Virus record (IMG/VR): IMGVR_UViG_3300033993_001894
Coordinates: 1-48,448 of that record
Strand: one strand, 5' to 3'
Length of the DNA stretch: 48,448 nt
DNA from: a virus
The notes beneath the pieces are model-generated. The model was not told the origin of the DNA, ran no database searches, and was given only the letters and a program-made list of their open reading frames with translations. Shown piece by piece: positions 1 to 48,448 of this stretch. The position numbers and the translations under genes were made by a program. The stretch's first letter is position 1. Each line of letters begins with the position of its first letter.

Positions 1-268
1 ATTTGGAAAGTTGGGCAAAGTATTCATTACCGGTCAAGTCATTTCGGAGTGTTCCGTGGTAACCAAAGTCCGATTTGTCCATCATAAATTCCCTAACCTC
101 ATCATATATTACATCAGCAAGGTATTTATCATCACCATATTTGGGTATTGAGGTCTTAATATTAGAGATCAATTCATCGATATCCTCTTCACTGTATCTT
201 CTTCTGATAAATGATGGGAGTTTGGTTTCTTCCCTTAATATTCTTCTTATAGATTCGTGTAGTCTCAT
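1..268 (-). CDS. Partial capsid-targeted protein candidate (C-terminus beyond window)
   Basis: The first 89 residues of a protein that runs off the window's left edge. The ATG at 268 follows the stop of the upstream gene by a few bases, so it closes the 2745-to-1 operon. The N-terminus MRLHESIRRILRE ends in L-R-E, matching the [L/I]xE cleavage consensus of T4-type prohead proteases, a leader shared with many proteins here. The remaining visible part is charged and has no motif I recognise. A role as a packaged internal protein is inference from the leader only. Confidence 0.6.
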   Translation of the reverse strand, partial: MRLHESIRRILREETKLPSFIRRRYSEEDIDELISNIKTSIPKYGDDKYLADVIYDEVREFMMDKSDFGYHGTLRNDLTGNEYFAQLSK

Positions 269-3265: not shown

Positions 3266-3703
3266 TTAATCAATCACATCGGTTAAATACTGACCAGGTC
3301 CTAATTTAACTTTATAAAGATTTTGCCCATCTTGTGATCCCATTGCATCCATCTCATCCATCCAGTCATCCCAATTTTTATCCAATAAAGATACAAATGC
3401 GTCATTATTACCTCTTTCTTTATATCGTTGGATGTACTCATCTTTTAATGATCTATCAGGGTAAACCAATACGAAAGGTATTTCCCTTTTAACTAAAGCA
3501 TCTCTTACATCTTTATGTGAAGATACTAAAATTTTATCCACATTTGGATCTTTAATATTTCTCTCAATATGTTCAATGTAGTTATCAGGAAAGTGTTTTT
3601 TATCAAACTTTGAACTATCACTGTCTAATACATTTTTTTCTGTGGTGTTAAAATAAGTTGTCTTCCCAACACCAGGGAACGCAGAATAAACTTTTGTTTT
3701 CAT
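3266..3703 (-). CDS. P-loop nucleotide kinase-like phage protein
   Basis: 145 aa. A Walker A motif AFPGVGKTT lies at residues 8-16, followed by a D-S-D-S-S-K-F segment and a basic arm (YIQRYKERGN), the pattern of a small family of phage P-loop kinases. It probably binds ATP and may phosphorylate a nucleotide or polynucleotide; the substrate cannot be read from sequence. It shares the operon with small proteins of unknown role. Confidence 0.65.
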   Translation of the reverse strand: MKTKVYSAFPGVGKTTYFNTTEKNVLDSDSSKFDKKHFPDNYIEHIERNIKDPNVDKILVSSHKDVRDALVKREIPFVLVYPDRSLKDEYIQRYKERGNNDAFVSLLDKNWDDWMDEMDAMGSQDGQNLYKVKLGPGQYLTDVID

Positions 3704-3741
3704 ATTTTTATATTATTTTAATCAGTTTGGGAAATATCATC

Positions 3742-4278
3742 TCAAGAATATGTACCTGTTGTGTTAGTAGTATAATTGATGTTACCCGTACCTTGTTTTT
3801 TAGGGTTAGGTACCATTTTATTACCCATAACACATCCACATATGCCACTACCTCCGTTTGATGGGTTACAAGAACAGATAGTCCCATACGGTACTTCGTC
3901 AGGTAACCTACCCAAATGATCCTCAATAGGTTTAGTGCCACAAGGTATTGTTAATATATCACCAAAAGGGTACTTTGGTGTTTGTGTCTCATTTACCTTT
4001 TCGTATGTTTGGTGGAACACGTCTTCTTTACAAGGATAGTATTCACCTTTCACACCTTTTATAATGTAATCCCCAATAGTTGCAACGTGTTCACCTTCCA
4101 TTGTTTTGATGATTAGTCCACCATCAATTCTACTATGATCAATGTAAAAATGATCACCATTTACTGACATAGTTTCATTAACAAATGTATCCGATGTTAG
4201 GAAATCAAACATTTCCCTATGATTCGTACCAGTCCATTGGACTGCATCTATTATTACAGGTTTTTTTCTATATTTCAT
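3742..4278 (-). CDS. Conserved phage protein with KYRKKPV...AVQWTG start
   Basis: 178 aa. The N-terminus (MKYRKKPVIIDAVQWTG) and the GDYIIKGVKGEYYPC segment match a protein common in many phages and prophages, of unknown function. Residues about 130-150 carry a cysteine cluster (C-S-C...C-G-C) in a Gly/Ser-rich stretch, so the C-terminus may bind metal or be disulfide-bonded. The gap to the next gene is 38 nt. An overlapping ORF in another frame at 3708-3941 is a shadow. Confidence 0.7.
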   Translation of the reverse strand: MKYRKKPVIIDAVQWTGTNHREMFDFLTSDTFVNETMSVNGDHFYIDHSRIDGGLIIKTMEGEHVATIGDYIIKGVKGEYYPCKEDVFHQTYEKVNETQTPKYPFGDILTIPCGTKPIEDHLGRLPDEVPYGTICSCNPSNGGSGICGCVMGNKMVPNPKKQGTGNINYTTNTTGTYS

Positions 4279-13513: not shown

Positions 13514-13920
13514 TTTATGTCATTAATAATTTTGAATAATTTATAATCATTCAACCCCAAATTATCTTTAATGTCTTTAATATCTGAATATTCATTCTCA
13601 TACTTTTGTAGATACTGTTCATTCAATACTATTAACTCATCAAATATTGTGATGAAATCATAGAAAACTGATCTGTCTCTAGTGTTCTCCAAAATCTTCA
13701 AACTAGTTTCGTTATCACCCCTATGAACTTTATCAATTAATAAGTGTGTACTACTTTTTATTATGTTAATTTTTAATCTATCTAGTGTACTATCAATCCT
13801 TTCTCTTAAATCCCACAACACAGATATTTTTTCTTTCATATCAGATAAGTATTGTGGTGTTAGTTCACCATTTTTATTGATGAATCTAATCACTGAATTA
13901 GTTACTCCTTCATTTTCCAT
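13501..13920 (-). CDS. Hypothetical helical protein, 139 aa
   Basis: Mostly helical, charged (YLSDMKEKISVLWDLRERIDSTLDRLKINI...). Transcribed away from the plus-strand unit at 14018; no clear promoter seen. No known domain. Confidence 0.5.
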   Translation of the reverse strand: MENEGVTNSVIRFINKNGELTPQYLSDMKEKISVLWDLRERIDSTLDRLKINIIKSSTHLLIDKVHRGDNETSLKILENTRDRSVFYDFITIFDELIVLNEQYLQKYENEYSDIKDIKDNLGLNDYKLFKIINDINLDK

Positions 13921-37998: not shown

Positions 37999-38010
37999 TA
38001 TCTTACTATG

Positions 38011-38084
38011 TGGTCCCTGTTGGGATCGAACCAACCACCTACTGATTATGAGTCAGTTGCTCTAACCGAATGAGCTAAGGGACC
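38011..38084 (-). tRNA. tRNA-Met (CAT)
   Basis: Canonical cloverleaf: acceptor GGTCCCT/AGGGACC, D-arm GCTC..AGC, anticodon loop CTCATAA, T-arm GTTGG/CCAAC. Anticodon CAT with a G1-C72 pair, so elongator Met or an Ile2 that would need lysidine. CCA not encoded. Confidence 0.9.
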
Positions 38085-38163
38085 TAATGGGTAGAATCAG
38101 ACGCGTTCTGTCTACCGAGACCTTGTCGTTAACTTTCGTCAGAGCGGAACAAGACACTATTAG
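38084..38163 (-). ncRNA. Structured RNA segment b between tRNAs
   Basis: About 80 nt between tRNA-Met and tRNA-Arg. Outer stem CTAAT/ATTAG; inner hairpins CTTGT...ACAAG and a long GGTAGA-CAGA hairpin pairing with TCTG-TCTACC. No ORF. It may be a spacer element guiding tRNA processing. Confidence 0.35.
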
Positions 38164-38237
38164 TGATCCCGAATGGATTCGAACCATTGACCTACTGCTT
38201 AGAAGGCAGTTGCTCTATCCAGCTGAGCTACGGGACC
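38164..38237 (-). tRNA. tRNA-Arg (TCT)
   Basis: Acceptor GGTCCCG/CGGGATC (one G-U), anticodon stem ACTGC/GCAGT, loop CTTCTAA, T-arm AATGG/CCATT. Reads AGA and AGG, the main Arg codons in this AT-rich DNA. CCA not encoded. Confidence 0.93.
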
Positions 38238-38243
38238 AATTTT

Positions 38244-38407
38244 AAAAGATGATGAATGACTTTATCAGGAATCTCGCCTTCGACTTCACACACCATTAGA
38301 GAGTCGGGAATTACGACAATACAATTAAGAATGTCAACCTATCCTTAGTGTGTACCCTTGCGTCACGTCTCTCCACGCTTATCATTCTACGCTTTGTATC
38401 ACCTTTT
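38244..38407 (-). ncRNA. Structured RNA segment c between tRNAs
   Basis: 164 nt closed by a 10-bp stem (AAAAGGTGAT with ATCATCTTTT, one G-U). Inside, GCGT...ACGC, GTCG...CGAC and CACAC...GTGTG pairings are possible. No ORF with start and coding character on the transcribed strand. Confidence 0.4.
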
Positions 38408-38408
38408 G

Positions 38409-38493
38409 TAGTCGGGGCGGGAATCGAACCCGCACGGACGCAATGTCCATTGGATTTTAAGTCCAACGTGTCTACCTATTCCACCACCCGACC
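38409..38493 (-). tRNA. tRNA-Leu (TAA)
   Basis: Class II, 85 nt. Acceptor GGTCGGG/CCCGACT, anticodon stem TTGGA/TCCAA, loop CTTAAAA, variable arm of about 16 nt, T-arm GCGGG/CCCGC. Reads UUA and UUG. Confidence 0.93.
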
Positions 38494-38528
38494 AAAAGTA
38501 TTAACCAATAAATTAAAGAACATTCTAG

Positions 38529-38600
38529 TACTGCCACGGGGAATCGAACCCCGCTTTTATGGATGAAAACCATAGGTCCTAACCGATAGACGATGGCAGC
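38529..38600 (-). tRNA. tRNA-Glu (TTC)
   Basis: Acceptor GCTGCCA/TGGCAGT, anticodon stem TATGG/CCATA, loop TTTTCAT, T-arm CGGGG/CCCCG. CCA not encoded. Confidence 0.93.
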
Positions 38601-38606
38601 GGTTTG

Positions 38607-38681
38607 CGGTGCGTATGGGATTCGAACCCATGACCTCTGCCGTGACAGGGCAGCATTCTAACCAGGCTAAACTAACGCACC
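38607..38681 (-). tRNA. tRNA-Asp (GTC)
   Basis: Acceptor GGTGCGT/ACGCACC, discriminator G as expected for Asp, anticodon stem CTGCC/GGCAG, loop CTGTCAC, T-arm ATGGG/CCCAT. First tRNA of block 1 in transcription order. Confidence 0.93.
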
Positions 38682-38684
38682 ATA

Positions 38685-38818
38685 CCCCCTTTATTAACCC
38701 CATTCTGATTATCTTTATACTACAATCAGACGTTACTAATGTAGTCCTTATCGTATTGTCTGACACCACTATCATATTACCCTAGTGACTTAGGCATCCA
38801 CAGTGAGGAGTTAGGGGG
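38685..38818 (-). ncRNA. Structured RNA segment d
   Basis: 134 nt upstream of tRNA-Asp. Terminal pairing CCCCC/GGGGG extended by TAAC/GTTA; inside, TCAGAC...GTCTGA and CTGATT...AATCAG hairpins. No ORF. With segment e it fills the 450-bp gene-free stretch 38682-39132. Confidence 0.4.
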
Positions 38819-38833
38819 ACTAGTATTATAAAA

Positions 38834-39049
38834 CCAACAGGACTATCAAACACCTTTACTCCGTAGTCTTAGTATTTTATCGACTTTAAGAGATCTGTAC
38901 TCGATTCTTTTCGATTAGACTTTTAATCCTTATCGATTATACCTTTCCTCCCAGACTTCGTATTCTTTGCGCAAACCTATCCGAAGTTCAAAGGGTCAGG
39001 TCCTTTAGTGATGAAAAATTAGTCATCTTATTTGATAGAACACTGTTGG
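38834..39049 (-). ncRNA. Structured RNA segment e (largest)
   Basis: 216 nt closed by a two-part long-range stem: CCAACAG/CTGTTGG and CTATCAAA/TTTGATAG. Between them: GATGA...TCATC, AAAGG...CCTTT, ACTTCG...CGAAGT with a TTTGCGCAAA palindrome in its loop, and AATCGA repeats. A GGGAGGAAAGG string recalls the RNase P RNA core, but the other conserved parts are absent. No ORF. Transcribed after the 138-aa gene. Confidence 0.5.
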
Positions 39050-39132
39050 TTTAAATATGTTTCAAAGAACGCTTTCTTTTTTTCTTTTACAATTATAACT
39101 ACTATTTTTTAAAAAAACAATAGATATGACAA

Positions 39133-45286: not shown

Positions 45287-45451
45287 TTAATCAAAAAAAC
45301 CACCAAAATATAATAATGTTAGATGTATTGTTACACCTATCATAGTAACAAAGACACTGTGATTCCCTTCTTTTGGTTTACCGTGTAAATAAGAAGAAAT
45401 CATTAAGTTAAGTCCAATAAGACTTAGTAAGATAATTTGTGGAACCCCCAT
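45287..45451 (-). CDS. Small two-helix membrane protein, 54 aa
   Basis: ATG at 45451 is preferred because the next in-frame ATG upstream (45472) lies inside the -7 box of the promoter at 45470-45501. Two hydrophobic helices (IILLSLIGLNLMISSYL and VFVTMIGVTIHLTLLYFGGFF). First gene of the 45451-39630 operon. Confidence 0.6.
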   Translation of the reverse strand: MGVPQIILLSLIGLNLMISSYLHGKPKEGNHSVFVTMIGVTIHLTLLYFGGFFD

Positions 45452-45469
45452 AATATATAATTTAGTAAA

Positions 45470-45501
45470 CAAATATAGTTATTATTTCCCATAAAAACAA
45501 A
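45470..45501 (-). promoter_or_regulatory. Bacteroidota-type promoter
   Basis: The minus strand reads TTTG, 20 nt, TATATTTG, between tRNA-Leu(TAG) and the 45451 operon. Confidence 0.8.
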
Positions 45502-45520
45502 TGTTTTAACATTTTTATAG

Positions 45521-45595
45521 TACCAAAGGTGAGATTCGAACTCACAAACCTTTGTTTCTAAGACAAAGAGGTATACCTATTCCCGTCACTTTGGT
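45521..45595 (-). tRNA. tRNA-Leu (TAG)
   Basis: Acceptor ACCAAAG/CTTTGGT, anticodon stem TTTGT/ACAAA, loop CTTAGAA, T-arm GTGAG/CTCAC. It has only a 5-nt variable loop, unlike normal class II Leu tRNAs. Reads CUN. Confidence 0.88.
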
Positions 45596-45601
45596 ATTTT
45601 G

Positions 45602-45674
45602 AGCAGGTGGAGAGAATCGAACTCTCGTCCTCTGATTGGAAGTCAGACATAATAAGCCACTATACGACACCTGC
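45602..45674 (-). tRNA. tRNA-Gly (TCC)
   Basis: Acceptor GCAGGTG/CACCTGC, anticodon stem TCTGA/TCAGA, loop CTTCCAA, T-arm GAGAG/CTCTC, discriminator T. Only Gly tRNA in the array. Confidence 0.92.
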
Positions 45675-45683
45675 ATAATTAGT

Positions 45684-45809
45684 TTACCTAATTTTTAATT
45701 TTTTAAAGATATTGATTATCTTTTTGAGATTGAGATTACTTCTCCTACTCAAAAGAAAGTTCACATTTTCTTTTGATGATTTAAACGTTCCTTTTACTAC
45801 TACTTTCAT
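45684..45809 (-). CDS. Small basic protein between tRNAs, 41 aa
   Basis: ATG at 45809, TAA at 45684, filling the gap between tRNA-Ala and tRNA-Gly. MKVVVKGTFKSSKENVNFLL followed by a lysine/arginine-rich helix (RRSNLNLKKIINIFKKLKIR). It would be translated from the tRNA precursor. Could be chance, but start, stop and composition are gene-like. Confidence 0.4.
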   Translation of the reverse strand: MKVVVKGTFKSSKENVNFLLSRRSNLNLKKIINIFKKLKIR

Positions 45810-45824
45810 ATTATTTATTTTTTG

Positions 45825-45898
45825 TGGATACATCTCGGCTTCGAACCGAGGACTCCTGAGTGCAAATCAGGTATGATAGCCAGCTTCATCAATGACCC
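45825..45898 (-). tRNA. tRNA-Ala (TGC), acceptor stem with bulged U
   Basis: Anticodon stem CCTGA/TCAGG, loop TTTGCAC, T-arm CTCGG/CCGAG, D-stem ATGA/TCAT. The acceptor GGGTCAT pairs with the 3' strand only if one T is bulged (ATG-T-ATCC). No G3-U70 at the standard place; a G-U pair appears at position 3 when the bulge is allowed. Only Ala tRNA in the array. Confidence 0.8.
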
Positions 45899-45903
45899 AT
45901 TAG

Positions 45904-45978
45904 TTGCGGGGGAGGGACTCGAACCCACGTAGTTCGGCTTATGAGACCGAGCTGGAACCACCTCCAGTCTACCCCGCA
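45904..45978 (-). tRNA. tRNA-Met (CAT), possible initiator
   Basis: Acceptor TGCGGGG/CCCCGCA, D-arm with AGGTGG loop, anticodon stem TCGGT/GCCGA, loop CTCATAA, T-arm GTGGG/CCCTC (one T-T mismatch). The weak first pair (T1-A72) and strong G-rich acceptor recall initiator tRNAs, but the GGG/CCC anticodon stem is incomplete. Confidence 0.88.
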
Positions 45979-46010
45979 ATTTTTAATTACACCGAATTCG
46001 GTATATTTAG

Positions 46011-46085
46011 TTCTCCCGACAGGATTCGAACCTGTGACTCCCTCATTAAAAGTGAGGTGCTCTAAACCAACTGAGCTACGAGAGA
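46011..46085 (-). tRNA. tRNA-Lys (TTT)
   Basis: Acceptor TCTCTCG/CGGGAGA, anticodon stem CCTCA/TGAGG, loop CTTTTAA, T-arm ACAGG/CCTGT. Lys-UUU is the classic target of anticodon nucleases such as PrrC. Confidence 0.93.
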
Positions 46086-46091
46086 TTGTTG

Positions 46092-46163
46092 AGGTTCCGC
46101 TCAGATTCGAACTGAGGACACATGATTACAAATCAAGCGTTTTACCAACTAAACTACAGAACC
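46092..46163 (-). tRNA. tRNA-Thr (TGT)
   Basis: Acceptor GGTTCTG/CGGAACC, anticodon loop TTTGTAA in a CTTGA/TCATG stem with one T-T mismatch, T-arm CTCAG/CTGAG, discriminator T. Confidence 0.9.
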
Positions 46164-46210
46164 TTATTATCACCCGTATGGTAACCGCTTGATTAACGGG
46201 CGAAAAATAG

Positions 46211-46283
46211 TAGTCTCTGTAGGGTTCGAACCTACGACATCTTGCATGTAAAACAAGCACTCTACCAACTGAGTTAAGAGACT
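46211..46283 (-). tRNA. tRNA-Val (TAC)
   Basis: Acceptor AGTCTCT/AGAGACT, anticodon stem CTTGT/GCAAG, loop TTTACAT, T-arm GTAGG/CCTAC. Confidence 0.92.
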
Positions 46284-46287
46284 GTTG

Positions 46288-46371
46288 CGGAAGAGTGAGG
46301 TATCGATCCCCATACCCGAAGGTACCACTAGTTTTCAAGACTAGGTCCAGCGCCAGCTGAATTACTCTTCC
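46288..46371 (-). tRNA. tRNA-Ser (TGA)
   Basis: Class II, 84 nt. Acceptor GGAAGAG/CTCTTCC, discriminator G, anticodon stem CTAGT/ACTAG, loop CTTGAAA, variable arm with a TTCG tetraloop. The T-loop reads ATCGATA instead of TTCGATA. First tRNA of block 2. Confidence 0.88.
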
Positions 46372-46407
46372 AGTTTTTTTCAATACGTCAAAGAACTAAA
46401 AACAAAA

Positions 46408-46431
46408 AACCCTAAGTTTTCACTTAGGGTT
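46408..46431 (-). terminator. Intrinsic terminator / attenuator before tRNA block 2
   Basis: 10-bp stem (AACCCTAAGT with ACTTAGGGTT, 4-nt loop) followed on the minus strand by TTTTTTG. It lies 27 nt after the stop of the 32-codon ORF and 36 nt before tRNA-Ser(TGA). Confidence 0.9.
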
Positions 46432-46458
46432 CCCATTTATAGTATTAAAATTTTACGA

Positions 46459-46557
46459 TTAACTAATGTGACATACCCTAAGTATTGGATGAAGCGAATC
46501 CGCCCCTTCCATTTTCGTCTTAACGACCTCTAGTCTGTATGTGAATGTAGTTAACAT
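46459..46557 (-). CDS. 32-codon ORF (leader peptide 1) before tRNA block 2
   Basis: ATG at 46557, TAA at 46459. The peptide MLTTFTYRLEVVKTKMEGAD... uses 17 different amino acids in 32 residues, including every amino acid served by the eight tRNAs downstream (S, V, T, K, M, A, G, L), and codons rare in this AT-rich DNA (GGG, GCG, TCG, ACG, CTA). The order promoter, short ORF, terminator, tRNAs is that of a translation-coupled attenuator. It could instead be a small RNA with a chance ORF. The ATG is 33 nt from the start of the -7 box. Confidence 0.4.
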   Translation of the reverse strand: MLTTFTYRLEVVKTKMEGADSLHPILRVCHIS

Positions 46558-46569
46558 TGAATTTTTATT

Positions 46570-46605
46570 TGTTTTTAATTAAATATACACAAATATACAA
46601 AAGTT
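46570..46605 (-). repeat. 36-bp promoter repeat, copy 1
   Basis: Identical over 36 bp to 48413-48448 (TGTTTTTAATTAAATATACA... on the plus strand). Contains the -7 box TATATTTG of the leader-1 promoter. The matching -33 TTTG is at 46618-46621. Confidence 0.9.
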
Positions 46606-46621
46606 TAAACAAAAAGTCAAA
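46590..46621 (-). promoter_or_regulatory. Bacteroidota-type promoter of leader 1 / tRNA block 2
   Basis: The minus strand reads TTTG, 20 nt, TATATTTG. Within and next to the duplicated 36-bp block. Confidence 0.85.
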
Positions 46622-46640
46622 TATTTTTAAAAAAATATTT

Positions 46641-47015
46641 TTATTTCATATTATCCATAGTAAGTTTATCTGCAATATAAACGTGTTTTAATTCCATTTT
46701 GAATTTATTTTCGAACCACTCCTTAAAAAAATAAAGGAATGATTTGTTAGATTCAAATTCTGGTGATTCTTTAATAAAGTTTTTATAAACTTCATATCTT
46801 ATTTCAAGAAAACCCCCAAACGCAAAATATGTCATAATAACATTAGGTAGTGTTAATTCAATTGAATTAGGTTTTGTCCAAATTCTTTTTCTAATCGATT
46901 TACCGTTAAAAACATGTATCACATTTTTTTCCTTTTTAAACCTAACTTCTTTAAATAAAGAATTAAATGTATCCTCACCAATTTTTTTTTCTGTAATTAC
47001 CATATCTTTTCCCAT
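46641..47015 (-). CDS. Hypothetical protein, 124 aa, between tRNA blocks
   Basis: ATG at 47015 (a second Met at residue 5 is possible). Basic N-terminal half with ITEKKIGEDTFNSLFKEV and strand-rich middle, helical end. Its promoter region (47035-47065) is almost a copy of that of the 138-aa gene at 39133, yet the proteins are not obviously similar. It lies between tRNA-Cys and leader 1. Unknown. Confidence 0.55.
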   Translation of the reverse strand: MGKDMVITEKKIGEDTFNSLFKEVRFKKEKNVIHVFNGKSIRKRIWTKPNSIELTLPNVIMTYFAFGGFLEIRYEVYKNFIKESPEFESNKSFLYFFKEWFENKFKMELKHVYIADKLTMDNMK

Positions 47016-47034
47016 AGTTTTTGATTTATTTAGA

Positions 47035-47065
47035 CAAAGATATGAATAATTTTCATTCTACCAAA
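47035..47065 (-). promoter_or_regulatory. Bacteroidota-type promoter, copy of 39570-39600
   Basis: The minus strand reads TTTG, 19 nt, TATCTTTG; start codon at 47015. Differs from 39570-39600 and its flanks at only a few positions. Confidence 0.85.
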
Positions 47066-47088
47066 TTTTTTAACGTTATTTTTATTTG

Positions 47089-47162
47089 AGGTCAGAGTGA
47101 GATTCGAACTCACGAAAAGTAGTTTTGCAGACTACCCCTTTAAACCACTCAGGCATCTGACC
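47089..47162 (-). tRNA. tRNA-Cys (GCA)
   Basis: Acceptor GGTCAGA/TCTGACC, anticodon stem GTAGT/ACTAC, loop CTGCAAA, T-arm GTGAG/CTCAC, discriminator T. Last tRNA of block 3. Confidence 0.93.
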
Positions 47163-47231
47163 GTTAGTTCACTAAACTATATTTTGCTTAATAAATTACA
47201 TTTGTTTATTGTTGCAAAAATAAGTTTATCG

Positions 47232-47304
47232 TACACTCTGAGAGATTCGAACTCCCATCTTATGATCCGTAGTCATAGGTTCTGATCCATTGAACTAAGA
47301 GTGT
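47232..47304 (-). tRNA. tRNA-Arg (ACG)
   Basis: Acceptor ACACTCT/AGAGTGT, anticodon stem TATGA/TCATA, loop CTACGGA, T-arm GGGAG/CTCTC. A34 would need TadA deamination to inosine to read CGU, CGC and CGA. Confidence 0.92.
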
Positions 47305-47309
47305 ATTGG

Positions 47310-47381
47310 TAGGGATGGGTGGAGTCGAACCACCGAGACTACTGTATAAGAGTAGCATGTTCACCGTTACATCACATCCCC
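47310..47381 (-). tRNA. tRNA-Ile (TAT)
   Basis: Acceptor GGGGATG/CATCCCT, anticodon stem CTACT/AGTAG, loop CTTATAC, T-arm GGTGG/CCACC. Anticodon UAU reads AUA directly, bypassing the usual bacterial lysidine-modified CAU tRNA. Confidence 0.9.
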
Positions 47382-47389
47382 ATATTTTG

Positions 47390-47476
47390 CGGAAAGAATA
47401 GGATTCGAACCTACGGTACCCTTTCAAGTACAACACCTTAGCAGGGTGCCACAATAAACCGCTCTGTCATCTTTCC
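47390..47476 (-). tRNA. tRNA-Ser (GCT)
   Basis: Class II, 87 nt. Acceptor GGAAAGA/TCTTTCC, discriminator G, anticodon stem GCACC/GGTGT, loop CTGCTAA, long variable arm, T-arm GTAGG/CCTAT. Confidence 0.93.
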
Positions 47477-47480
47477 ATTA

Positions 47481-47554
47481 GGTGTACGATGGGACTCGAA
47501 CCCACTATTGACGGAATCACAACCCGACGCCTCGACCACTTTGGCTTCATACAC
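47481..47554 (-). tRNA. tRNA-His (GTG)
   Basis: Acceptor GTGTATG/CGTACAC, discriminator C as in His tRNAs, anticodon loop TTGTGAT in a TCGGG/TCCGT stem with a bottom mismatch, T-arm GTGGG/CCCAT. The base before G1 is T, not the encoded G-1 usual in bacteria. Confidence 0.88.
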
Positions 47555-47556
47555 AG

Positions 47557-47627
47557 TTGTCTCCCAAGGATTCGAACCTCGATTAAGTGGACCAAAACCA
47601 CTTGTCCTGCCATTAGACGAGGAGACA
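47557..47627 (-). tRNA. tRNA-Gln (TTG)
   Basis: Acceptor TGTCTCC/GGAGACA, anticodon stem AGTGG/CCACT, loop TTTTGGT, T-arm CGAGG/CCTTG. Weak U1-A72 first pair, as is typical for Gln tRNA. Confidence 0.93.
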
Positions 47628-47634
47628 TTATTTG

Positions 47635-47723
47635 TCTAAGTGATGGGACTCGAACCCACATAGAACTGTTACATTCATTCCTGATCCCAAATCAGGTCGG
47701 CGACCAATTGCCTACACACCTAG
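47635..47723 (-). tRNA. tRNA-Pro (TGG) with long variable arm
   Basis: 89 nt. Acceptor CTAGGTG/CACTTAG, anticodon stem CCTGA/TCAGG, loop TTTGGGA, T-arm GTGGG/CCCAT. The variable region is about 20 nt, class II-like, which normal Pro tRNAs lack. Confidence 0.88.
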
Positions 47724-47729
47724 TTATTG

Positions 47730-47802
47730 TGGAACAGGTAGGAATCGAACCTACATTGTCGGATTTTCAGTCCGATGCCTTGACCAACTTGGCAACTATT
47801 CC
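47730..47802 (-). tRNA. tRNA-Phe (GAA)
   Basis: Acceptor GGAATAG/CTGTTCC, anticodon stem TCGGA/TCCGA, loop CTGAAAA, T-arm GTAGG/CCTAC. Confidence 0.93.
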
Positions 47803-47807
47803 ATTTG

Positions 47808-47880
47808 CACACCCCCAAAGATTCGAACTCTGACCAAACGGGTTGGAGCCGTTTATGCTACCGTTACACTAGAGATGTGT
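47808..47880 (-). tRNA. tRNA-Trp (CCA)
   Basis: Acceptor ACACATC/GGGGTGT (one A-G mismatch), discriminator G, anticodon stem AACGG/CCGTT, loop CTCCAAC, T-arm CAGAG/CTTTG. Reads UGG only, so no sign of UGA recoding. Confidence 0.9.
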
Positions 47881-47958
47881 ATAAATGTTCAGGAAGACTT
47901 TTTTTACATTTCCAAATTAGTAGTTTTTTATTTGCTGAAATCTTCCTTTTAACATTTG
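47881..47958 (-). ncRNA. Stem-closed spacer RNA between tRNA-Tyr and tRNA-Trp
   Basis: 78-nt spacer. AAATGTT pairs with AACATTT and GGAAGA with TCTTCC, closing an A/T-rich loop. tRNA-sized with a 7-bp outer stem, but without T-loop or anticodon features. A processing spacer or decayed tRNA. Confidence 0.3.
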
Positions 47959-48041
47959 TGAGGGTAGTAGGATTCGAACCTACTCAGTCATAGACAACAG
48001 ATTTACAGTCTGCCCCAACTCTCCAACTTTGGCGTACCCCC
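47959..48041 (-). tRNA. tRNA-Tyr (GTA)
   Basis: Class II, 83 nt. Acceptor GGGGGTA/TACCCTC, anticodon stem GCAGA/TCTGT, loop CTGTAAA, variable arm of about 13 nt, T-arm GTAGG/CCTAC. Confidence 0.93.
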
Positions 48042-48053
48042 ATTAATTATTTG

Positions 48054-48127
48054 CGATTCAGGCAGGACTCGAACCTGCGACAACTTGATTAACAGTCAAG
48101 GGCTCTAACCAACTGAGCTACTGAATC
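48054..48127 (-). tRNA. tRNA-Asn (GTT)
   Basis: Acceptor GATTCAG/CTGAATC, discriminator G, anticodon stem CTTGA/TCAAG, loop CTGTTAA, T-arm GCAGG/CCTGC. Confidence 0.93.
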
Positions 48128-48164
48128 ATTTAATTTTACATTATATCAAAGAACTTATGTTCTG

Positions 48165-48240
48165 TCGGTATGGTAGGGATCGAACCTACGAATCTTCTCG
48201 ATATCAGCGAGATGCCTTAAACCTACTTGGCCACATACCG
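48165..48240 (-). tRNA. tRNA-Ile (GAT)
   Basis: Acceptor CGGTATG/CATACCG, anticodon stem TCTCG/CGAGA, loop CTGATAT, T-arm GTAGG/CCTAC. First tRNA of block 3 in transcription order. Confidence 0.93.
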
Positions 48241-48254
48241 TAATAAATTAAAAA

Positions 48255-48280
48255 ACCCCAACTCATTTCTGAATTGGGGT
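48255..48280 (-). terminator. Intrinsic terminator / attenuator before tRNA block 3
   Basis: ACCCCAA pairs with TTGGGGT around a partly paired loop, then TTTTTTAATTT on the minus strand. It lies 26 nt after the stop of the 32-codon ORF and 14 nt before tRNA-Ile(GAT). Confidence 0.85.
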
Positions 48281-48306
48281 ACTTTAATCCTTTATTTATT
48301 TATCTA

Positions 48307-48405
48307 TCAAAATTTAAATAACGACATAACATACCCCATCCTTCCGTAAATATAAAACGGTTGACACCACTGTATCGGATTACTATGTATGTTATTCATT
48401 ATCAT
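48307..48405 (-). CDS. 32-codon ORF (leader peptide 2) before tRNA block 3
   Basis: ATG at 48405 (or 48399, 30 codons), TGA at 48307. The peptide MIMNNIHSNPIQWCQPFYIY... contains all eleven amino acids decoded by the tRNAs of block 3 (I, N, Y, W, F, P, Q, H, S, R, C), and both Ile codon types (AUA and AUU), matching the two Ile tRNAs. It lacks A, D, E and T, which are decoded elsewhere. It carries rare codons CCG, AGG and TCG. Same architecture and spacing as leader 1. The peptide itself is not related in sequence to leader 1. Confidence 0.4.
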   Translation of the reverse strand: MIMNNIHSNPIQWCQPFYIYGRMGYVMSLFKF

Positions 48406-48412
48406 TTTTTAC

Positions 48413-48448
48413 TGTTTTTAATTAAATATACACAAATATACAAAAGTT
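48413..48448 (-). repeat. 36-bp promoter repeat, copy 2 (at window edge)
   Basis: Exact copy of 46570-46605. Contains the -7 box TATATTTG (48433-48440); the expected -33 TTTG lies beyond the window end. Confidence 0.9.

Follow-up and report, generated by a model that had tools for sequence, protein, structure and literature searches.

Two blocks of tRNA genes in the virus record IMGVR_UViG_3300033993_001894 (48,448 bases, G+C 31%; this whole stretch was analysed and is called the window below) lie on the minus strand behind modules with a common layout. A 36-bp promoter segment is followed by a 32-codon open reading frame (ORF), an intrinsic terminator and then the tRNAs. In all likelihood each module is a ribosome-mediated transcription attenuator of the trp type that controls the phage tRNA operon behind it, and the product of the operon would be the very tRNAs that the leader tests. 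A first-pass annotation of the window had raised the idea of tRNA-sensing attenuators, and tests at the level of sequence now support it. The modules share a layout, their peptides match the downstream tRNAs in composition, their codons match them in class, their RNAs have the potential for the required pairing, and the match ends sharply at segment 2, the antiterminator strand.

In cells, we infer, the steps from transcription to read-through would be connected as follows. RNA polymerase would start at the promoter and a ribosome would follow on the leader ORF. The codons just 5' of segment 2 would test for the amino acids decoded by the downstream tRNAs and, for the most part, for their codon classes as well. 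If all of the sampled tRNAs are available, the ribosome would reach the stop codon and cover segment 2, segments 3 and 4 would form the terminator and the tRNAs would stay untranscribed. Shortage or lack of charging of any one sampled tRNA would make the ribosome stall upstream; segment 2 would then pair with segment 3, the terminator would fail and the whole operon would be transcribed. The product of the operon would then relieve the stall that had turned it on. In other words, this would be a feedback loop on tRNA supply.

The two copies of the 36-bp segment in the window (46570-46605 and 48413-48448) are identical and each contains a -7 box of Bacteroidota type, TATATTTG. The promoter of leader 1 (46590-46621) has a TTTG at 46618-46621, inside the window and 20 nt 5' of the -7 box; we take this promoter to be of the Bacteroidota -33/-7 type. 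At leader 2 the -7 box is at 48433-48440 and the -33 element falls outside the window, being visible in the relative L005. ORF 1 (46459-46557) encodes MLTTFTYRLEVVKTKMEGADSLHPILRVCHIS and ORF 2 (48307-48405) encodes MIMNNIHSNPIQWCQPFYIYGRMGYVMSLFKF, with 32 and 27 nt, respectively, between the -7 box and the ATG. The stop codons are 24 and 26 nt from the terminators (46404-46434 and 48250-48282), by the terminator rule of this analysis. Block 1 (45520-46371) consists of eight tRNAs: Ser(TGA), Val, Thr, Lys, Met, Ala, Gly and Leu(TAG). Its tRNA-Ser(TGA) (46289-46371) is missed by ARAGORN and matches Rfam at 47.9 bits, as tRNA-Sec. Block 2 (47088-48240) consists of 12: Ile(GAT), Asn, Tyr, Trp, Phe, Pro, Gln, His, Ser(GCT), Ile(TAT), Arg(ACG) and Cys. 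What the annotation said of this layout holds: the identical segments precede both blocks, both ORFs have exactly 32 codons, the two peptides are unrelated in sequence, leader 1 covers all eight amino acids of its own block and leader 2 all eleven of its own, and A, D, E and T are absent from leader 2.

Within each leader a sampling core is followed by segment 2. The core of leader 1 (46492-46533) is LEVVKTKMEGADSL. Its segment 1 (46537-46543, CACATAC) has pairing potential with the GTATGT of segment 2 (46470-46483, ACTTAGGGTATGTC), which carries a copy of the terminator 3' arm; the terminator itself provides segments 3 and 4. In leader 2 the core (48346-48396) is NNIHSNPIQWCQPFYIY, all residues of which are served by block 2, and segments 1 and 2 are ATGAATAACATACAT (48385-48399) and AGGATGGGGTATG (48330-48342). 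An AGG codon in leader 2 had been listed as a mismatch, as it is not read by the Arg tRNA of block 2. The codon is indeed present, but it is not a decoding mismatch because it sits inside segment 2, where RNA pairing, rather than decoding, keeps it in place.

Do other phages have such modules? Relatives were found through exact promoter patterns in the virus collection. The huge phages LR756502 and LR745206 were reached through similarity matches of the window tRNA-Ser, and LR756501 through a weak match at the start of that gene. The tRNA regions of these three and eight contigs were scanned. A second search round used as query the metallophosphoesterase-like gene beside block 1, and a third used a phage glutaminyl-tRNA synthetase (GlnRS). 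The scan rule started from the terminator nearest the tRNA and moved outward, taking the longest ATG ORF of 12-42 codons with its stop 10-60 nt before the terminator. This rule is blind to composition, yet the layout was already familiar from the first examples when the rule was drawn up. The start codon is ambiguous in some leaders (L033, L042, L043 and L134), for which the longest ATG ORF of up to 42 codons was taken. The tRNA genes covered were the 357 that have over 130 nt of sequence upstream; they lie at 108 loci, some of them overlapping.

Removal of identical peptides before counting reduced 109 raw leaders to 77 distinct ones, at tRNA blocks of 45 loci in 26 phage records (G014 and G023 share one leader). 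These records include three huge phages of 635-735 kb, and no cultured phage is among the leader-bearing ones examined here. The 77 leaders have 16-42 codons and stops 17-47 nt 5' of the terminator. Terminators with U-runs precede the first tRNA, by construction of the scan, at a median distance of 30 nt. A -7 type box lies upstream in 56 of the 77 (3.6 expected), and the full pattern TTG-17..23-TAnnTTTG in 39 (0.2 expected). The first distant relative, L004, has a different leader, MRTINNIFEFDFFAAEADFSLGRSTYVCS, before Phe, Glu, Asp and Ala tRNAs. Among 25 stretches from a third promoter scan, nine have tRNA leaders (L004, L005, L006, L013, L018, L019, L020, L022 and L023), 15 have no tRNA in the stretch examined, and in L007 the promoter sits on a transfer-messenger RNA (tmRNA). 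The L007 tmRNA gene (3681-4089) begins right behind a promoter identical in kind to that of the tRNA leaders. Stretches of relatives with few or no tRNAs gave no leader (L120, L123-L126, L133, L135, L141, L145, L146, L153 and L155), and neither did the two scanned (L136 and L139) of five matches in a genome-contig scan. Two named phages were considered and set aside: Chryseobacterium phage MA9V-2 matches in short pieces only, with no tRNA match, and Tenacibaculum phage pT24 matches in short pieces only, with four tRNA matches and no leader.

The composition of the leaders follows the tRNA content of their own operons. As a control, the leaders were sorted into families, which then exchanged their tRNA sets in 20,000 permutations. 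For the first 41 leaders (17 families), the fraction of residues in the leader's own set is 0.493 vs 0.240 permuted (permutation maximum 0.356), and for the best 12-residue window it is 0.777 vs 0.357 (maximum 0.559). With all 77 leaders, in 37 families at 50% identity, the best window scores 0.759 vs 0.380 (maximum 0.507). The 37- and 17-family groupings are preferred because a clustering into 14 families over-merged unrelated leaders. Ten leaders found after the idea had formed serve as an out-of-sample set and give 0.792 vs 0.558, a value that 50,000 permutations never reached. After correction for the size of the tRNA set the score is positive in all 77 leaders and above 2 in 64, and 67 hold every called amino acid of their own operon. 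The match is also specific to the reading frame. In the 17 families the other frames of the same DNA give window values of 0.28-0.41, and the true frame beats +1 and +2 in all 17 and each reverse frame in 16. The comparison with related phages that had been suggested at the outset therefore finds the ORF again with other sequences and other tRNA sets, its composition tracking the operon far beyond permuted sets. The claimed enrichment of rare codons also extends to the collection, as 76 of the 77 leaders score below windows of long ORFs.

The match extends to codon class. Later isoacceptor tests covered the 77 leaders and the codons from the fifth to the point at which the antiterminator is lost. 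Where an operon has only one of two isoacceptor classes (Ser, Arg, Leu, Ile), leader codons favour that class by 88 to 27 (61.1 expected). With relatives averaged, the codon-class match is 0.83 vs 0.53 expected, a value reached by 2 of 20,000 simulations, and 22 of 27 family-by-amino-acid cells lie above background. In 23 equal-length pairs of homologous leaders the core differences are 44 synonymous and 48 nonsynonymous, where 19.8 synonymous would be expected. Codon-level constraint, one of the checks originally proposed, is thus seen both in these differences and in split-box codons, which follow the operon isoacceptor at the family level.

This bears on the strongest alternative, in which the same attenuator would respond to a shortage of amino acids or of tRNA charging in the infected host rather than to loss of tRNA. 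Stalling needs only a shortage of charged tRNA, which follows from either cause, and the presence of GlnRS and a class II synthetase in some operons hints at a role for charging as well. However, codon class follows the isoacceptor of the operon, which would be needless for an amino-acid sensor, and tRNA genes would be a poor answer to a missing amino acid. Starvation as the signal is a possibility that we consider doubtful.

For an attenuator that tests tRNAs, the switch itself is predicted from the RNA. A segment near the end of the ORF would pair with the 5' arm of the terminator (leader 1, ACTTAGGGT; leader 2, TGGGGT; L004, GTCAACCT). A folding model was used in which the ribosome covers RNA up to 14 nt beyond the first base of the A-site codon. 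In this model the pairing of the terminator 5' arm with the leader is 0.73 with the ribosome in the matching codons vs 0.12 with the ribosome at the stop (17 families), and core pairing exceeds stop pairing in 17 of 17 families. Across all 77 leaders the best antiterminator value along the ORF has a mean of 0.79, and the value at the stop a mean of 0.10. The mutually exclusive hairpins that the annotation had suggested looking for are predicted in both window leaders and, taking a stop value below half of the maximum as the criterion, in 74 of the 77 leaders. Shuffling the order of codons lowers the pairing to 0.405 from the observed 0.751, the highest of 60 shuffled means being 0.495. Segment 2 pairs with its own segment 3 at -13.05 kcal/mol vs -11.51 kcal/mol with that of a homologue, and its own partner is the better one in 10 of 13 families.

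If the ribosome reads the operon's codons on its way to segment 2, where does the match end? Between the fifth codon and the point at which the antiterminator is lost, the matched fraction is 0.67 (77 leaders), vs 0.25 beyond that point and 0.26 in codons 2-4, and it is higher before the loss than after it in 75 of 77. It is 0.79-0.84 in the four codons before this point, 0.53 at the point itself and then 0.43, 0.30 and 0.17; beyond segment 2 it is mostly near 0.2-0.3. Codons of segment 2 could not match tRNAs freely because segment 2 is held by pairing. By the folding model, then, the agreement of the peptide with the tRNAs breaks off where a stalled ribosome would no longer free segment 2.

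A second alternative is that the promoter-terminator unit yields a stable small RNA or small protein acting in trans, with the tRNAs made by leaky read-through. A short RNA ending at the strong terminator would be made by default, and the RNAs of the window leaders, terminator included, do fold better than shuffles (z -5.2 and -6.0). However, the peptides are wholly different between operons yet match the tRNAs of each, the match is specific to one frame, and segment 2 matches the terminator arm. We regard this explanation as very unlikely. Could a tRNA instead bind the leader RNA directly, in the manner of a T-box and without translation? In favour of this, the genes downstream have to do with tRNA, and synthetase genes are known targets of T-boxes. 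Rfam, however, gave no family match to either window leader at the gathering score, and no T-box family appears in the window at that score or among matches at E <=10 in 45300-48448. Moreover, the match runs in one reading frame over about 10-17 consecutive codons, with synonymous changes. Direct binding is therefore highly improbable. Finally, chance, which the annotation had kept as an explanation of the composition, is hardly credible: short ORFs are common in AT-rich DNA, but no permutation reached the observed value and the scan rule gave no leader in stretches of seven other tRNA-bearing phages.

Individual operons serve as natural experiments for tRNA-testing attenuation. A leader with QQQQQQQ precedes four tRNA-Gln genes and GlnRS, and one with SSRSRSS precedes Arg-Ser-Arg tRNAs. 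In LR756502, leaders such as MTTSFQQQQQQQINRTD are followed by tRNA-Gln genes, then GlnRS (PF00749, E 9.6e-93) and a class II synthetase of the D/K/N type. In some huge phages a cognate aminoacyl-tRNA synthetase gene is in the same run as the tRNAs. A Gln-rich leader is found in six of nine GlnRS contigs; L128 begins too near the gene to judge, and the examined stretches of L133 and L135 hold no tRNA. In L046 (8399-12641) the poly-Gln leader and tRNA-Gln genes are followed by GlnRS and a class II synthetase. GlnRS is also carried by Escherichia phage D6.

Homologous leaders differ in keeping with their operons. L121 reads ENCCYE before an operon without tRNA-Trp, and L122 reads EKCWYE before one with tRNA-Trp. 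A lax covariance scan (E 1) of L121 6500-10800 finds eight tRNAs, no further one and no tRNA-Trp; in L122 such a scan adds an interrupted match at 13682-13802, the position of tRNA-His in L121. The homologue of block 1 in L088 and L113/L114 has no tRNA-Glu even in a lax covariance scan, and its leader has no E. A second operon in L088/L113, Leu-Glu-Arg-Met, has its own leader, MKNTNIISLLERLERFSLMEMV, which contains LLERLERFSLMEM. The absence of tRNA-Met from the same block-1 homologue (no ARAGORN call) was dropped as a tracking case because the lax scan shows a match of 30.3 bits with anticodon CAT, so that the claim for Glu alone stands. L113 17549-17688 holds two weak tRNA matches (30.3 and 23.5 bits), both with anticodon CAT by our own reading and both missed by ARAGORN. 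In L149 a single operon, Glu, Tyr, Gly, Ile and Ala, lies behind a single leader, MNTLIYIGYIAEGGYEAG..., that includes GYIAEGGYEAG, whereas its relatives have separate Glu-Tyr and Ile-Gly-Ala operons, each with its own leader.

Several observations weigh against the interpretation, or limit it. The first isoacceptor test (41 leaders, best 12-residue window) gave 20.8 of 32.5 vs 19.7 expected, which is not significant. In within-family comparisons, which are non-independent, an amino acid is commoner where its tRNA is present in 77 cases, rarer in 43 and equal in 48. The tRNA sets are ARAGORN calls and may be incomplete, as the misses in L113 illustrate. Two of the ten later leaders fit poorly, L093, which has few called tRNAs downstream, and one from L116; the Ser-rich leader of L151 precedes a single called tRNA-Arg. 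In the window, block 1 has no Asp or Glu tRNA, unlike its counterparts in relatives, yet leader 1 keeps E and D. These residues match the operon in L040 and L043, whose homologous operon has Asp/Glu tRNAs, whereas in the window those tRNAs sit in block 3. Some tRNA blocks are leaderless, among them block 3 itself (38010-38681, minus strand; Asp, Glu, Leu, Arg and Met), for which no leader or terminator could be found. Stretches of seven other tRNA-bearing phages (24, 3, 15, 18, 28, 23 and 3 tRNAs by ARAGORN) also gave no leader. Five of these have 15-28 tRNAs and, therefore, the module is not general in phage tRNA arrays.

The folding model has its own misfits. Shuffled codon order still yields moderate pairing (0.405), and single families can be non-significant by themselves: 14 of 60 shuffles are as good for L057 and 10 of 60 for the Glu-Tyr family. 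In untranslated RNA the antiterminator pairing averages 0.65 (17 families), near the stalled value of 0.73. The full folds of the two window leaders do show a protector hairpin between segments 1 and 2, but by the values of the model a trp-type protector seems ineffective on average. Since untranslated RNA is, on average, also predicted to form the antiterminator, the off-state seems to depend on translation as far as the stop codon.

How do these modules compare with known systems? In the trp- and his-type attenuators of enteric bacteria, a short leader ORF with regulatory codons is combined with an intrinsic terminator and a competing antiterminator, and the position of the ribosome decides between them. 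The phage modules show the same parts at the level of sequence and predicted folding. However, trp and his attenuators control enzymes and their leaders repeat one amino acid, whereas the phage modules would control tRNAs and one leader would sample many amino acids, eleven of them in leader 2 of the window. In addition, segment 2 usually falls inside the ORF, and the model predicts no protector hairpin that would be effective on average. The pheST operon of E. coli provides a leader-peptide attenuator of aminoacyl-tRNA synthetase genes. There, as proposed for the phage modules, a decoding component is controlled by stalling at its own codons, and the phage poly-Gln leader also precedes GlnRS. 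The available text of PMC1262725 treats trp leaders and describes candidate trpS and leuS attenuators in Streptomyces. The modules described here differ from such synthetase-gene attenuators in that they occur in phages, tRNAs are the first genes past the terminator and many amino acids would be sampled. T-box riboswitches respond to uncharged tRNA and control terminators without a leader peptide, whereas the phage modules have a predicted one and the window has no T-box match.

Other features accompany the tRNA operons. A boxA-like AGTTCTTTGACGTATTG lies in the gap between the terminator and the first tRNA of block 1 (46381-46397, minus strand), its identity as boxA being our assumption. A boxA-like TTCTTTGA is found in the same gap for 19 of the 77 leaders (0.39 expected). 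Such an element ahead of stable RNA genes may point to boxA antitermination of the rRNA type, which would be an accessory and not the switch. After a boxA-like GTTCTTTGAAA, about 370 nt without an evident gene lie ahead of block 3 (38690-39060). Rfam gave no convincing match for this stretch, which could be a structured spacer RNA. Some tRNA genes look interrupted, with inserts of about 40-110 nt (L004 2741-2880 and 3870-4260; L114 10418-10523 and 15045-15153; L122 13682-13802), and a TTTCAGCAA..TTAAAC stretch recurs in L004. Possibly these are small introns. GOLLD RNA occurs in attenuator-bearing phages (L116 587-991 and L118 18653-19060). Between tRNA operons of LR756502 there is a PP-loop ATPase gene (L045 11290-11886; PF01171), TilS-like by our own reading. 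Finally, tRNAs with a CTA anticodon in L058, L146, L153 and L069, labelled Pyl by ARAGORN, are possibly suppressor tRNAs.

The class of mechanism is classical. What is new, to our knowledge, is that tRNA genes would be the target and that many codons would be sampled at once; no tRNA operon is known to us to be under leader-peptide attenuation. Literature searches returned no account of leader peptides ahead of tRNA operons among the matches listed. A search for terms in the available text of PMC7162821, PMC10264068, PMC1262725, PMC7824862 and PMC13015707 found no mention of such modules, and the words 'leader peptide' and 'attenuat-' do not occur in that of PMC7162821, which deals with the tRNA arrays of huge phages. 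By size, the three huge phages scanned here would fit the set of that paper.

The huge and large phages that bear these modules are judged to be phages of Bacteroidota by promoter type. On balance it seems probable that they carry codon-resolved tRNA thermostats, with a translated sampler for each regulated operon. Attack on, or exhaustion of, one tRNA would switch on the whole set, together with a synthetase in some phages, and the sampler would be rewritten as operons split, fuse, gain or lose tRNAs. The modules would suit as natural multi-codon stall reporters, and the leaders would be a testable record, readable from sequence, of the codons that each phage expects to run short. According to the available text of PMC10264068, it has been a puzzle for over 50 years why phages have tRNAs. 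If the proposed mechanism is true, the regulator reveals the purpose of phage tRNAs, which would be supply on demand, such as after cleavage of host tRNA.

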